Source of the DNA: Candidatus Brennerbacteria bacterium RIFOXYC1_FULL_41_11 | Lineage (GTDB): Bacteria > Patescibacteriota > Minisyncoccia > UBA6257 > Brennerbacteraceae | NCBI GenBank assembly: GCA_001817215.1 | Contig: MHHX01000006.1 | Location: 383-37,499, forward strand | Length of the DNA: 37,117 nt | Reading direction: 5' to 3' | Shown here: positions 9,137 through 37,116 of the stretch, piece after piece | Position numbering within the stretch: position 1 is the first letter of the stretch | Layout of the letters: every line of letters starts with the position of its first letter | Position numbers and translations under genes: made by a program | Notes under the pieces: generated by a model | Told to the model about the DNA's origin: nothing | What the model saw: only the letters and a program-made list of their open reading frames with translations | Database searches by the model: none

Positions 9137-9170
9137 ATGAAAATAACGCCTGCTCAGGCGTTATTTTCAT
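9137..9170 (-). terminator. hairpin at the end of the pheST leader (putative attenuator terminator)
   Basis: Perfect 16-bp inverted repeat ATGAAAATAACGCCTG-(2 nt)-CAGGCGTTATTTTCAT; core AACGCCTG/CAGGCGTT followed by ATTTT. Confidence 0.7.
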
Positions 9171-9186: not shown

Positions 9187-9243
9187 TCAACGCCCAGATG
9201 CGATTCTAAAGATAAAAAAGAAAAAGTTAAAAAATTTATTCAT
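9187..9243 (-). CDS. Phe-rich leader peptide MNKFFNFFFFIFRIASGR
   Basis: 18-codon ORF with 7 Phe codons read from the minus strand; ATG begins 1 nt after the stop of the upstream ORF; stop codon lies in the antiterminator arm. Confidence 0.85.
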   Translation of the reverse strand: MNKFFNFFFFIFRIASGR

Positions 9244-30812: not shown

Positions 30813-32528
30813 TTAGCGCTTCCAGACTCTTTTTAGATATAAATACCACTCGTTAACCCGTGAAAATCTCACCCCCGAATCAGAAATAAACTCGACCGGA
30901 GGAACATGAAACGATTCATCAACAAACCAATTAATTTGTGGCTGAAACAGAAATACTCCGGGTAAATCATTTTTTATCAAAGCGTCGAGTTCCTCATAAG
31001 ATTCATTGATATCAGCATCTTTGGTTCCTCTAATATAGGAAAGGATCTTGTCAACTTCTTTGTTTTCATAAACGGCGAAATTCAAACCAGGAGAAGATAA
31101 CTGAGAAGAGTGCCAAAATGGAAACAGATCTGGTTCTTTTCCGATTGGGCTGGAAAGACCCAAGAGCACCATCTGATATGACCTCGTCTGCAGCCTCGAA
31201 GAAAACTCATTTACCCCCATTGGTTTCAATATTACGCTGATTCCGACGGCCGCCAAATCAGTCTTGATTCTTTCCGCTACGTTAGTGATTCCGGGTGTAT
31301 CATGAAAAAGAATTGACAACTCCAATTTTGTAACAGTTTTTGTTTTTGAAGAAAGCCTCTTTTCAAGAAATCCGTCCTCATCTTTATCCTGCCAACCGTC
31401 GTCAAGCAATATCTCCTTTGCATTCGCTTGATCAAAGACATCTTTGAAATTTTCGGAAAATCTTTTTAGTGGAATCGCGGAGTCCGTTAACGAACCGGCT
31501 CCCGGGAATGATTCAGACAGAACAGCTGTTTTATTTATAGACAAATTAATTGCTTTCCTGATAGAAAAATCTTTCAACAGTTCATTGCTGTTATTAAACA
31601 ACAAAGAAAAGACCTGAGCTTCAAGAATTTTTTTCATCTCGTAATTTGAAGACTCCCCCGGTAAACTCACGGCCAATCCATTTATCTCTTTTTTCCTAAA
31701 CGCGCTTAAGGCCGCCGCTTCATCACCAAAAAACTTTAGGTTAAAAGATTCAAGATATGGTCCGGCGTAATATTTATCAAAAGCCACAAGACCATACGAA
31801 ATCACTTTCCCGTCTTTATCCTGAATGATTTTCTTGAATTTATACGGACCAGAGCCGATTGGTTTTAAATTATATTCAGAAAACACAAAAGCGTTAACCT
31901 GCGTATCTTTCCAGATATGCTCGGGCATAATTCTAAAGGTTAGATAAAAAGGGAAGAATCGATAGCTTTTTTTCAAAGTAAATTTCAAGGTTTTATCTGA
32001 CAAGATTTCAACAGCGATTTCTTTCCAAAAATCTGCCAGTGGATTCTGGAGCTCCTGATTTTTCAAAAGCTCTAACGTAAAAATCACATCCCTTGCTGTC
32101 AGCGGCTCGCCATCATGCCAAAATATGTTCTCCCGCAAAGACACCAGAAAAACCTTCCCCTCCTCAAAAAGGGTCATTGATTCAGCCAAATCAGGCAACA
32201 CCCCTCCTTGTCCGTCTGGCTTATAAAGACTTGAAAAGACCAGGCTCTCAAGAATCTCCTCGGCGTTATTCTGATCAGGAATAACGGGGTTAACGTACCT
32301 TGGAAAACTAATGACCGCCTCAGTGTAAACGCCGCCTGATTCTGGGATCAAAACCGTGTTCGAAAAATAAAATCTCGCGGAGAATAAAGACAAACCGATC
32401 GTACCGGCAATAATCAAAAAGGAAAAAATAATTTTATCCCTCAGGCCAAGACCAAGAAAACCACTGATCAATCTTTTAAAAGACAGCTTCAAAAAAAAGC
32501 TCTTTGACTTTTCCAATAAGGGCAACAT
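30813..32528 (-). CDS. ABC-type peptide-binding (SBP family 5) protein
   Basis: TEAVISFPRYVNPV..., WHDGEPLTARDVIFTLELL, GSGPYKFKK, RKAINLSINKTAVL. Confidence 0.9.
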   Translation of the reverse strand: MLPLLEKSKSFFLKLSFKRLISGFLGLGLRDKIIFSFLIIAGTIGLSLFSARFYFSNTVLIPESGGVYTEAVISFPRYVNPVIPDQNNAEEILESLVFSSLYKPDGQGGVLPDLAESMTLFEEGKVFLVSLRENIFWHDGEPLTARDVIFTLELLKNQELQNPLADFWKEIAVEILSDKTLKFTLKKSYRFFPFYLTFRIMPEHIWKDTQVNAFVFSEYNLKPIGSGPYKFKKIIQDKDGKVISYGLVAFDKYYAGPYLESFNLKFFGDEAAALSAFRKKEINGLAVSLPGESSNYEMKKILEAQVFSLLFNNSNELLKDFSIRKAINLSINKTAVLSESFPGAGSLTDSAIPLKRFSENFKDVFDQANAKEILLDDGWQDKDEDGFLEKRLSSKTKTVTKLELSILFHDTPGITNVAERIKTDLAAVGISVILKPMGVNEFSSRLQTRSYQMVLLGLSSPIGKEPDLFPFWHSSQLSSPGLNFAVYENKEVDKILSYIRGTKDADINESYEELDALIKNDLPGVFLFQPQINWFVDESFHVPPVEFISDSGVRFSRVNEWYLYLKRVWKR

Positions 32529-32581
32529 TCAGTATTTAACTTTTAGACAATGAGGGAAACTAAAAATCTGCCGTTCGGCAG

Positions 32582-32803
32582 TTAAACGAAAAACAAACCC
32601 ACGACGATAGAGACGGCGAAAAGAAAAACAAAAATAATCGAAGCAATAAAAACAGTCTTCTCCAGACCGCGACGGGTAGCATAAAATTCTCCCAGGCCGC
32701 CAAAGACACCAGACAGGCCTTCACCTTTCTGCTGCAGAAGAATTGAAACAACCACTAAAACCGAAAGAGTAATCTGGACAATGCTTAAAAATTGTTTAGT
32801 CAT
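32582..32803 (-). CDS. secG: preprotein translocase subunit SecG
   Basis: 73 aa, SILLQQKGEGLSGVFGG, two TM segments. Confidence 0.92.
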   Translation of the reverse strand: MTKQFLSIVQITLSVLVVVSILLQQKGEGLSGVFGGLGEFYATRRGLEKTVFIASIIFVFLFAVSIVVGLFFV

Positions 32804-33302
32804 TTTTCTTTTCTACCATGTCAAATAAATAATTGATAAAAGTGATAATCAAAGTCGTGTAAAGTAAAGCAAGAAAATTGGAAAAACTCAACTGTGGCGC
32901 CCAGTAAGTCGCCAACCAAAGCATGGCGGCATTGATGATTAAACCAAAAAGACCAAGAGTAATGAAGACAAACGGCGCCAGAATAAACTCCAAAAACGGC
33001 TTCAAAAGAATGTTTAGTAAAGTGATGATTGCCGCGGCTCTTGCCAGATCTAAAAACGCGCCTGAAAAAGAAATACCAGGAATGTAGTTAATGGCTATTT
33101 GTAAACCTACAAAATTAGCCAGTAGCCTCAAAAGAATTTTGGCGATTGCTGCCATAAAGATAAACCATGATAGCACAAACAATGAATATAGCAAAGCCGT
33201 CATGATGACGGCTTTTAAAATCAGATTTTCCTCTAGTTGGGGATAGGCGGCTAGAGTATTATTCTGGCCCTCAGTTATTGAATCTTGCAATAACCCAAGC
33301 AC
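32796..33302 (-). CDS. multi-TM protein, phage holin family 4-like
   Basis: LLNILLKPFLEFILAPFVFITLGLFGLIINAAMLWLATYW; apparent GTG start. Confidence 0.65.
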   Translation of the reverse strand: MLGLLQDSITEGQNNTLAAYPQLEENLILKAVIMTALLYSLFVLSWFIFMAAIAKILLRLLANFVGLQIAINYIPGISFSGAFLDLARAAAIITLLNILLKPFLEFILAPFVFITLGLFGLIINAAMLWLATYWAPQLSFSNFLALLYTTLIITFINYLFDMVEKKND

Positions 33303-33482
33303 CTAGGCTAATCTAGGGCACAATTGCGAAATTCCTTCCTCAATGTCTGATGTATCACTACTATCTGCCGACGGCGTTTCCTATCTCCTACCGCGGGATC
33401 AATGAGGTGTTAACTAGTATGCGGATTCGCAAAGCCCCGATACTATTATTAATAACATAAAGATACGAAAAAGACAAGTTAT

Positions 33483-33509
33483 TGAAACTTAGCTGAAATA
33501 ACTTATAAT
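33483..33509 (+). promoter_or_regulatory. promoter of the trpS leader
   Basis: TTGAAA-type -35 and perfect TATAAT (33504-33509), about 16-bp spacer. Confidence 0.75.
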
Positions 33510-33515
33510 CAGGAA

Positions 33516-33572
33516 ATGAATTCAATACTGAAATTTTGGTGGCGAACAATAGTTAAAAACCTCTGGCAATAG
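33516..33572 (+). CDS. Trp-containing leader peptide MNSILKFWWRTIVKNLWQ
   Basis: 18-codon ORF with tandem TGG TGG and a third TGG just before the TAG stop; upstream of an intrinsic terminator and trpS. Confidence 0.8.
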   Translation: MNSILKFWWRTIVKNLWQ

Positions 33573-33595
33573 AGCTTATTTGCGCGTAATTCTAA

Positions 33596-33618
33596 AGCTC
33601 CCGTCAGGGAGTTTTTTT
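33596..33618 (+). terminator. trpS leader terminator (attenuator)
   Basis: AGCTCCC-GTCA-GGGAGTTTTTTT. Confidence 0.85.
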
Positions 33619-33645
33619 AATTCATTATTAAGATAAAATATAAAC

Positions 33646-34665
33646 ATGAACACAAGATCAACACCAAAAACAAAAAAACGAATTCTCACTGGCGACACGC
33701 CAACGGGCAAGCTTCACCTTGGCCATTATGTTGGTTCCTTGGAAAACAGAATCGAACTCCAACACAAGTTCGACACTTATATCATGCTCGCCAACCTTCA
33801 TGCCTATGCTAATCACTACTATGAGGCCGACCGTATTAACAACGACGGCCACAATGTTGTTCTCGATAACCTGGCTGTTGGATTAGATCCGAATGTGGCG
33901 ACGATTTTTCTGGAATCAGGCGTACCGGAAATTCTTGAACTTTATTCATTTTTCATGACCATGGTCAAACACTCTCGAGTGATGATGAACCCAACTGTCA
34001 AAGATGAGGTCAAATACAAAAAACTTGATCCTTCTGTCGGCTTTATTAACTACCCAATTCTACAAGCGGCCGATATTCTTGCTTTCAATGCCGATTTAGT
34101 GCCAGTAGGCGAAGACCAGTCACCCGTGATTGAACAAACCAGAGAGATTGCCAAGGATTTTAACAAGACTTTTGGCAAAACTTTTGTGATTCCCGAAGCT
34201 AAAATCGGTAGGGTCGCCAGGCTTTGCGGCACAGACGGGAAGCCCAAAATGTCAAAATCCGGCGGCAACTCGATTTTGCTTTCTGACGACGAAAAAACTC
34301 TGAAAGAGAAGGTTATGTCAATATACACTGATCCGAAAAGAATCCACGCCACCGACCCCGGCAAGGTTGCCGGCAACCCGGTGTTTATTTATCACGACGC
34401 TTTCAACCCGAATAAAGACGAGGTAGCTGATCTCAAATCAAGATACAAAAAAGGCGCTGTTGGCGACATCGAGGTCAAGCAAAAGCTTTTCATGGCTTTG
34501 AATAACTTTCTTGAACCAATCAGGGAAAAAAGAAAATACTTTGAATCCCGACCCAAAGAAACAAAAGAAATCCTGGTTGAAGGCACAAAAAAAGCCAGAA
34601 AAACCGCACAGGAAACAATCGAGATTTTCCGTGAAAACTCAAAGTTCCTGGGATTATTAAGATAA
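33646..34665 (+). CDS. trpS: tryptophan--tRNA ligase
   Basis: TGDTPTGKLHLGHYVGSLENRI; PKMSKSGGNSILLSD. Confidence 0.97.
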   Translation: MNTRSTPKTKKRILTGDTPTGKLHLGHYVGSLENRIELQHKFDTYIMLANLHAYANHYYEADRINNDGHNVVLDNLAVGLDPNVATIFLESGVPEILELYSFFMTMVKHSRVMMNPTVKDEVKYKKLDPSVGFINYPILQAADILAFNADLVPVGEDQSPVIEQTREIAKDFNKTFGKTFVIPEAKIGRVARLCGTDGKPKMSKSGGNSILLSDDEKTLKEKVMSIYTDPKRIHATDPGKVAGNPVFIYHDAFNPNKDEVADLKSRYKKGAVGDIEVKQKLFMALNNFLEPIREKRKYFESRPKETKEILVEGTKKARKTAQETIEIFRENSKFLGLLR

Positions 34666-34693
34666 AAGCCGCCTGAGTTCCGATGTGTTGATA

Positions 34694-34723
34694 GCAAAAA
34701 TCCCGCTTAAGCGGGATTTTTGC
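34694..34723. terminator. bidirectional terminator between trpS and ileS
   Basis: GCAAAAATCCCGC-TTAA-GCGGGATTTTTGC. Confidence 0.9.
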
Positions 34724-34740
34724 GAAGTGTCCTAGAAAAT

Positions 34741-37116
34741 TTACTTTTCTAAACCAATTACGTATTTCTGACCGTTTATTTCTATCTCCTCTCTTACATT
34801 TTCTGGTGGTACCTGACGAACAAGTATTGTATTTGTAGATCCAGAAACTTCATACAACTCCATGAAAGATGGTTCATCTACAGAGTAGCGTCTTGCTTTT
34901 TCTTGCGGCAAGTACCCTTTTTCTTGCCTTTTTTCTTGAAGAATCCGAATATATTCACGAGCCAGGCCTGCATTCCTTAACTCTTCCGTAATTCTTGTAT
35001 CAAGTCCAACACCTTCTTCAAAAACAATGCCTTCGGAAAACTTTCTAACAGTTTCCACTTCTTTAACATTAAGTTCTTCGCAAAGAATTTGCTTGGCATC
35101 TTCCGAAATATTCATATTTAGCAGCTTCAATGCTTGCAGTGGTTGTCTGACTTTAATGCCGGCCTTGGCGCGCAAAGCAAGTCCTTGTTCGGCAATTTTT
35201 CTCACCCGTGTCATCTCTGAAATAATCTTTTCCGAGTCAGAAACAACTGGTAATTCCTGCCATAAACTTAAGTGAACACTCGATTCTTTTTTGTTTATCA
35301 ACTTGTTGTTAATGCTTTGCCAGATCTGTTCTGCTAAAAACGGCGTGAACGGCGCCATTAACTTTGCCAGTTCCAAAAGAATACCGGCAAAGAATTGAAG
35401 ATCTTTTTCAAACTGCTCTTGCGACTCTGGTTTTTGGAACCTCTTTCTGGAACGTCGCAAATACCACCGAGACAGATCATCAAAAAACTCTCTCAACAAT
35501 CTCGAGGCTTCAAAAATTTTGTATTCTGACAAATTCTTATCGACGCCAGATGAAATTACTTCCAGTCTCGACAAAATCCATTTATCAAGCAGATTCTGCG
35601 GTTCAAGATTTGATTTTTCTAGAGCGCCAGCCTCGCCAAGTCCGATGCGATTCAATTCGGGAGAATAAAGCTCGAAAAACTTCAGAACGTTCGAAACCGT
35701 CATTAATTCTTGTGAGAATACGGCCAGGTCTTTTTCCGAAAACTTTTTGTATTCTCCAGGCGAATTAACCGTATAAAAATACCATCGCAAAGAATCAGCT
35801 CCGTATTTTTCTATCATCTGCCAGGGGTCAACAATATTGCCTTTAGACTTTGACATTTTCTCACCATTTTTATCCAAAACATGGCCAACGCAGACAACGT
35901 TCAGATAAGACGGACCCAGATCAAGGGCTGTTGAGATCGCCAGTAGCGTATAAAACCAACCACGCGTCTGATCAATGGCTTCGGAAATGTAATCACCCGG
36001 GAATGGAAGTTTTTCTCTGATCAATTTTTGGTAATCAATCTTGGCCGGATCATCGCCTTGGTTCATCTGTTCAAACGGAAAATGAAACTGAGCCAAGGGC
36101 ATGGCACCGGAATCAAACCAAACATCAATCACTTCTTTGACTCGAAGCATCTTCGACCCCACCGCGTCTGACATGCCAGTCGCGTTTGACGCGGCGCATT
36201 CCGTGCATTTCAAAAAGATATCATCAACATATGGTCGATGAAGATCAATTTCGTTTTTCTCGTTATAGGGCAGATTTTTTGAAACAAACTCGCGCGACTC
36301 TGCCAAACCAAACTTTCTTGACCCAGGAACGCCATGATCATTATTATTAAGTCCAGACCACAGCGTTGAGAGCACGCCTTTGTGCGAAACCAAAGCGATT
36401 GTCTGCCCGAAATACTTTTTTTCCAGTTCTTTAAAAAGCTCAAAAGAACGATTGAGAACATCTTGAAAGCTCTCGCCACCTTCAGGCTTAAAACCAAACC
36501 AGTCACTACCTTTAAAAGAACTGTCATAGTCTTTAATCGGCTTACCGCTCAATATTCCGGCATCAACCTCTCTTAACCTCTTGTCATAGATTAATTCGGC
36601 TTCTGGAAAATTGCTCTTCAAAATTTCGGCGGTCTCTTTTGTTCTTGTTAAATCAGAAACAACAAAAACATCGATTTTCTCCGTAGCGATCTTTTGCGCC
36701 AGTCCAATAACTTGTTGTTTTCCGTTTTCGGTAAGATGGTTGGGAATTTTTTGATCACCGGAAAAATCAATTAAAAGATTGTCAATGATTGACTGTGACT
36801 CGCCGTGACGAATTAAAAGATATTTATTCTTTGAAAGAGCATGCTCGGAAAAATCAGTCAGTGAACCAACAACGAATTTATGATTGGAATCTTTTTCACA
36901 TTCCCAGACTGGCAAGGGCGTACCCCAATATCTGTCTCGCGATAAAGCCCAGTCTTTTAACTCTCGCAACCATTCGCCGAAACGGCCTTGCTGGAGATGT
37001 TCGGGTTCCCAGTGAATTTTTTTGTTATTTTCAATCAACTTCTGCTTGACCTTGTTCATCCGGATAAACCAAGAACTGTAAGCATAATAAAGCAAAGGAG
37101 TTTTGCAACGCCAGCA
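34741..37116 (-). CDS. ileS: isoleucine--tRNA ligase, 5' end beyond the window, with inserted histidine phosphatase domain
   Basis: Frame open to the window edge (CWRCKTPLLYYAYSSWFIRM); LSRDRYWGTPLPVW, EVIDVWFDSGAMPLAQ, KMSKSKGNIVDPW; inserted LLIRHGES...VSHKG domain. Confidence 0.95.
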   Translation of the reverse strand, partial: CWRCKTPLLYYAYSSWFIRMNKVKQKLIENNKKIHWEPEHLQQGRFGEWLRELKDWALSRDRYWGTPLPVWECEKDSNHKFVVGSLTDFSEHALSKNKYLLIRHGESQSIIDNLLIDFSGDQKIPNHLTENGKQQVIGLAQKIATEKIDVFVVSDLTRTKETAEILKSNFPEAELIYDKRLREVDAGILSGKPIKDYDSSFKGSDWFGFKPEGGESFQDVLNRSFELFKELEKKYFGQTIALVSHKGVLSTLWSGLNNNDHGVPGSRKFGLAESREFVSKNLPYNEKNEIDLHRPYVDDIFLKCTECAASNATGMSDAVGSKMLRVKEVIDVWFDSGAMPLAQFHFPFEQMNQGDDPAKIDYQKLIREKLPFPGDYISEAIDQTRGWFYTLLAISTALDLGPSYLNVVCVGHVLDKNGEKMSKSKGNIVDPWQMIEKYGADSLRWYFYTVNSPGEYKKFSEKDLAVFSQELMTVSNVLKFFELYSPELNRIGLGEAGALEKSNLEPQNLLDKWILSRLEVISSGVDKNLSEYKIFEASRLLREFFDDLSRWYLRRSRKRFQKPESQEQFEKDLQFFAGILLELAKLMAPFTPFLAEQIWQSINNKLINKKESSVHLSLWQELPVVSDSEKIISEMTRVRKIAEQGLALRAKAGIKVRQPLQALKLLNMNISEDAKQILCEELNVKEVETVRKFSEGIVFEEGVGLDTRITEELRNAGLAREYIRILQEKRQEKGYLPQEKARRYSVDEPSFMELYEVSGSTNTILVRQVPPENVREEIEINGQKYVIGLEK

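Follow-up and report, generated by a model that had tools for sequence, protein, structure and literature searches.

A probable leader-peptide attenuator before trpS in a Brennerbacteria genome, with cognate leaders before thrS and pheS in the same family

The trpL leader of Escherichia coli (RF00513) combined a leader peptide containing Trp codons with mutually exclusive antiterminator and terminator structures, and it controlled biosynthesis. At E. coli pheST, a synthetase gene was attenuated by a cognate leader peptide, pheM. At synthetase genes, T-box leaders also answered starvation for amino acids, and they sensed uncharged tRNA directly through RNA structure. In Streptomyces coelicolor, attenuation of trpRS1 was reportedly described by Vecchione and Sello in 2010, as cited in PMC4787780. 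A leader attenuator was also predicted for trpS2 of S. avermitilis (PMC1262725), and in S. lividans leaderless leaders were found before trpS, leuS, thrS and other genes, among them TrpL2, which had a single Trp and lacked a U-rich tract (PMC8079986). Since Streptomyces trpS attenuators were already known, the kind of mechanism considered here was not new. A limited literature search turned up no publication on leader-peptide attenuation in CPR bacteria, and its occurrence there and the set of target genes were new to the literature searched.

The window, that is, the whole stretch of DNA that we analysed, covered 37,117 nucleotides of Candidatus Brennerbacteria bacterium RIFOXYC1_FULL_41_11 (contig MHHX01000006.1). 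The source genome comprised 608 kb in 22 contigs and is called G000 below. It was very likely that trpS in this window was controlled by a ribosome-mediated transcription attenuator, as an initial annotation of the same DNA had suggested. A divergent intergenic gap held, in this order, a promoter, a leader ORF, an intrinsic terminator and trpS (Table 1), and a check of the sequence placed all of these, together with the pairing segments, exactly where that annotation had put them. The TTGAAA/TATAAT pair (TATAAT at 33504-33509) agreed with the consensus at 11 of 12 positions and was the top promoter-like site in a scan of 32000-35500. Three of the 18 codons of the leader were Trp codons, cognate to the gene downstream, and the terminator lay between this short ORF and trpS. 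Its core had been read as CTCCC-GTCA-GGGAG-T7 at 33598-33618, and our terminator scan lengthened the stem to 9 pairs (33594-33615). The probable leaderless position, the stronger antiterminator strand CTCTGGC, the TAAAAT hexamer and the Phe-rich leader before pheS were additional to the initial annotation.

Table 1. Features of the trpS and pheS leader regions, in positions of the window
Feature	Position	Strand	Remarks
Sigma-70-type promoter, TTGAAA-16-TATAAT	33482..33509	+	-10 ends 6 nt before leader ATG
Leader peptide ORF, MNSILKFWWRTIVKNLWQ, then stop	33516..33572	+	ATG 33516, stop TAG 33570-33572; homologues in G002 and G005
Sensor Trp codons W8 and W9	33537..33542	+	W8 invariant, W9 in this genome only (ungapped comparison of three leader peptides)
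Segment A, CTCTGGC, putative antiterminator strand	33561..33567	+	Includes last Trp codon W17 (33564-33566)
AGAG	33571..33574	+	Can form a weak local hairpin with CTCT at the stop codon; within conserved core CTGGCNNWAGAGCTKATTT
GAGCTT	33572..33577	+	Can pair with AAGCTC 33595-33600; auxiliary, specific to this genome
Intrinsic terminator, AAAGCTCCC-GTCA-GGGAGTTTT and U tract	33594..33618	+	Segment A can pair with GTCAGGG 33603-33609
TAAAAT, -10-like	33634..33639	+	Exactly 6 nt before trpS ATG; candidate unattenuated basal promoter
trpS, tryptophanyl-tRNA synthetase, 339 aa	33646..34665	+	Regulated gene; TIGR00233, 269 bits (cut-off 177)
Phe-rich leader before pheS, MNKFFNFFFFIFRIASGR, then stop	9187..9243	-	Begins 1 nt past the stop codon of the preceding gene; not leaderless
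Terminator of the pheS leader, AACGCC-TGAGCA-GGCGTT	9145..9162	-	5' arm can pair with GGGCGTT 9189-9195 (minus)

Since the -10 hexamer ended 6 nt before the ATG, transcription was expected to start at the leader start codon. Thus, judging from this spacing, the leader is probably leaderless and translated from the very 5' end of the transcript. We also infer where the ribosome would stall and how termination would respond to Trp. RNA polymerase would start at or beside the leader ATG, and a ribosome would load on the 5' AUG. When Trp-tRNA is ample, this ribosome would reach the stop codon at 33570 and cover segment A, so that the terminator would fold and end the transcript at about 100 nt. 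If Trp-tRNA runs short, the ribosome would stall at W8 or W9 and its leading edge would lie near 33550, which would leave segment A free to capture the emerging terminator loop and 3' arm, and transcription would continue into trpS.

The two states corresponded to mutually exclusive folds in computation. When the A site of a stalled ribosome held W8 or W9, the free RNA of the window preferred the antiterminator at -18.2 kcal/mol (free-RNA fold), which consisted of the CTCTGGC:GTCAGGG helix and a helix between an A-rich segment and the U tract, accompanied by GAGCUU:AAGCUC. For a ribosome at the stop codon, the terminator alone formed, at -12.7 kcal/mol (also a free-RNA fold). Segment A and its target both lay in RNA that a ribosome at W8 or W9 leaves free. 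Computation therefore yielded an alternative helix that excluded the terminator and was available upon stalling at a cognate codon.

In comparison to E. coli trpL, the gene under control here encoded a synthetase, biosynthesis was lacking as far as trpB shows, and no Rfam match was obtained. Moreover, the antiterminator strand was inside the ORF at the last Trp codon and was directed at the terminator loop and 3' arm, and the leader had no Shine-Dalgarno sequence. The trpS leader differed from pheM in its amino acid and its unrelated lineage, and the leaders described here were probably mostly leaderless. The Streptomyces trpS leaders were alike in that a short Trp-containing leader, leaderless in S. 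lividans, was located upstream of a tryptophanyl-tRNA synthetase gene, with ribosome-mediated attenuation as the mechanism. However, they belonged to another phylum, and the leader of the window had three Trp codons and a U7 terminator.

Two further genomes of the family had homologous leaders before trpS, namely Parcubacteria group bacterium GW2011_GWF1_45_5 (G002), whose TrpS was 72% identical to that of the window, and G005. The G002 leader (VNKTLKNWFWLTVKRSWRKS, then stop) had a TATACT hexamer 6 nt upstream and was followed by a terminator with a poor U tract (TTCAGTTTC). The G005 leader (MLIRNWRQARIQKLWR, then stop) contained two Trp and was followed by the terminator ACTCCTCGCCAGAGGAGTTTTTT; our leader filter, set at three or more Trp, excluded it, and it was recognised by reading the sequence. 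In an ungapped comparison with the G005 peptide starting at position 3, W8 and W17 were invariant in all three leaders and 27 nt apart. The counterpart of W9 was Phe in G002 and Arg in G005. Thus, of the Trp-Trp stall site named in the initial annotation, the W8 codon was upheld, whereas the tandem pair was not a conserved sensor. The core CTGGCNNWAGAGCTKATTT, which spanned the stop codon, had three exact matches in 244 genomes of the order, all of them in trpS leaders, and none of the one-mismatch matches in other families was near trpS.

The conserved antiterminator pairing joined CTCTGGC with the terminator loop, which read GTCAGGG in the window and CGCCAG and CGCCAGAG in the relatives. In G002, the helix CGCU-CUGGCG:CGCCAG-AGCG (-19.1) was the best fold before the 3' arm of the terminator is completed. 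Similarly, CUGGCG:CGCCAG was the best fold in G005 once the loop had emerged and the 3' arm was still incomplete, and the G005 strand offered eight perfect pairs (CUCUGGCG:CGCCAGAG). In both genomes the finished terminator was the more stable fold at equilibrium, so antitermination there would have to be kinetic. The initial annotation had instead taken GAGCTT:AAGCTC as the antiterminator, to be given up if close relatives did not conserve it. This pairing had no perfect counterpart in G002 or G005 and was thus discarded as a conserved helix; at most it adds to CTCTGGC:GTCAGGG in G000. The weak CTCT:AGAG hairpin proposed at the same time could form in both the window and G005, and G002 had an equivalent in GCUC:GAGC. 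The general idea of ribosome-mediated trpS attenuation was well supported, with the leader, the promoter geometry, the terminator and the alternative pairing present in three genomes.

The trpS leaders were known from these three genomes only. They were absent from G001, which belonged to the same genus as the window, and from G003 of the same family. Outside the family, the nearest TrpS relatives, from Woesebacteria (78%) and WS6 (72%), had no leader upstream, and a scan of more than 100 trpS upstream regions outside the family gave no comparable leader. ORFs with at least three Trp upstream of trpS at L040, L086 and L096 were rejected because their layout did not match.

Two non-orthologous types of TrpS were found at the same ileS-adjacent locus within one family (window 33646-34665; L033, L034, L035, L053). 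The proteins of G000 and G002 were of one type and those of G001, G003 and G005 of the other, with about 32% identity between the types, and in all five genomes ileS followed trpS on the opposite strand in a convergent orientation. Since the locus was the same and the leader was shared by three genomes with different TrpS types, the coding sequence appeared to have been displaced in place. The trpS leader thus stands, at one locus, in front of two TrpS proteins that are not orthologues of each other. In the TrpS tree, the closest relatives of the genes from the window and from G002 were not placed firmly.

The attenuation of trpS was also backed by parallel leaders at two other synthetase genes. 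Poly-Thr leaders with terminators, apparently leaderless, preceded thrS in G000 (L155), G002 (L159) and G005 (L153), and the thrS leader peptides of the family were MQQLTTTTAS, MQKFTTTTTTTATPLYRQWF and MKTLITTTTAIV, each followed by a stop codon. None of the other thrS loci taken from the order had a Thr leader. Phe-rich leaders, a direct parallel to E. coli pheM, preceded pheS in four genomes, G000 (in the window), G001, G002 and G005; that of G001 was located just downstream of an apparent tRNA 3' end. A search by eye and by pattern gave no convincing cognate leaders at ileS, leuS, valS, metS, glyS, serS, hisS and tyrS of the family. A TANNNT hexamer was positioned exactly 6 nt before the start codon in seven of nine leaders compared, the other two being the pheS leaders of G000 and G001. 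In the G005 trpS leader, such a hexamer was at 5 nt.

In eight of nine leaders, a set that excluded the later identified G005 trpS leader, the region around the leader stop was complementary to the leader's own terminator hairpin beyond shuffles (p<0.05; Fisher p 1.4e-9). A control of 48 ordinary pairs of a gene and a terminator showed no excess (median p 0.49; 3/48 at or below 0.05), and it answered only partly the point that the region for the duplex test was chosen after some leaders had been inspected. A scan with no amino acid requirement looked for ORFs of 7-32 codons that started 6 nt after a -10 hexamer and were followed by a terminator. It gave seven matches, six of which were cognate leaders, in 330 kb of DNA from the family that consisted mainly of synthetase loci with some overlap. 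In 953 kb of other loci, the sole cognate match was one more copy of the thrS leader of G002.

Among the other explanations, the most serious one was that the attenuator coexists with a constitutive second promoter. In this case, TAAAAT at 33634-33639 would drive a leaderless trpS mRNA, and the attenuator would add expression only in starvation. Besides its distance from the trpS ATG, the hexamer recurred after the terminator at nearly all leaders (trpS of G002, thrS of G000 and G002, and all four pheS), at times again exactly 6 nt ahead of the synthetase start codon, and TAAAATAA was over-represented in the window, with 11 matches against 3.8 expected. However, TAAAAT had no convincing -35 element, its G002 counterpart was 15 nt from the ATG, and AT-rich spacers were expected before start codons anyway. 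We therefore regarded such a promoter as a tentative possibility; if it is real, the control of trpS by the attenuator would be weakened.

It was very unlikely that, instead of serving as a sensor, the ORF encoded a small protein with a function of its own or a leader peptide that acts in trans. The peptide was basic, contained Trp and had some conserved residues, and a precedent was available in Sinorhizobium peTrpL, for which roles in trans are reported (PMC7298713). On the other hand, conservation centred on W8, W17 and an RNA core that extended past the stop codon, and the amino acid matched the gene at three loci. A chance combination of a random Trp-containing ORF with an ordinary terminator was highly improbable, even though the leader had only 18 codons and trpS leaders came from so few genomes. 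Namely, dinucleotide shuffling of the intergenic region in the window produced an ORF of 6-30 aa with three or more Trp in 0.3% of cases (0.18% if WW or WxW was required), the region of the sister genome gave 0.04%, and the core was conserved in three genomes. The cognate leaders at thrS and pheS shared the same plan. Moreover, there was no plus-strand ORF of 60 aa or more between the divergent gene (33302, minus strand) and trpS, so the terminator served the leader transcript alone. Finally, control by a T-box or another RNA sensor was hardly credible: T-box-like elements did occur in the family at proS, at valS and before G001 trpS, all below the Rfam cut-off, but a search of 32500-34500 for Trp_leader and cis-regulatory families at E up to 1 returned only three unrelated chance-level matches and no T-box.

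CPR bacteria are assumed to rely on other cells for their amino acids. A search for trpB gave no match in the six family genomes and a match in 14 of 14 control genomes, which for this one enzyme supported the view of the initial annotation that Trp biosynthesis was lacking. Taken together, we consider it reasonably likely that leader-peptide attenuators at trpS, thrS and pheS serve as a direct starvation sensor, mostly leaderless and exchangeable with T-boxes, across a Parcubacteria family without detectable Trp synthesis, and that the trpS sensor was retained while a non-orthologous synthetase displaced the gene behind it. If this is true at the three synthetase genes, then reduced genomes would sense the supply of charged tRNA through coupled transcription and translation, and the attenuators would offer a bioinformatic handle on the amino acids that CPR cells run short of. 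A leader that outlived its replaced gene would also be a clean case of regulation outlasting the regulated protein.

T-box-like elements occurred in the same genome family, although there was none at the trpS locus of the window. They were at L164 (G000 proS), L165 (G005 proS), L180 (G004 valS) and L033 912-1148 (G001, before trpS, with a small ORF in between). They were far below the Rfam cut-off, yet had a GGTGGNACCRCG-like core. Another T-box-like element was located upstream of a related trpS in Collierbacteria (L078 1270-1428). In four genomes, G030, G049, G204 and G205 (family f26 of the order), the TrpS and/or ThrS frames contained several TGA codons that were read through, which was consistent with a reassigned TGA.
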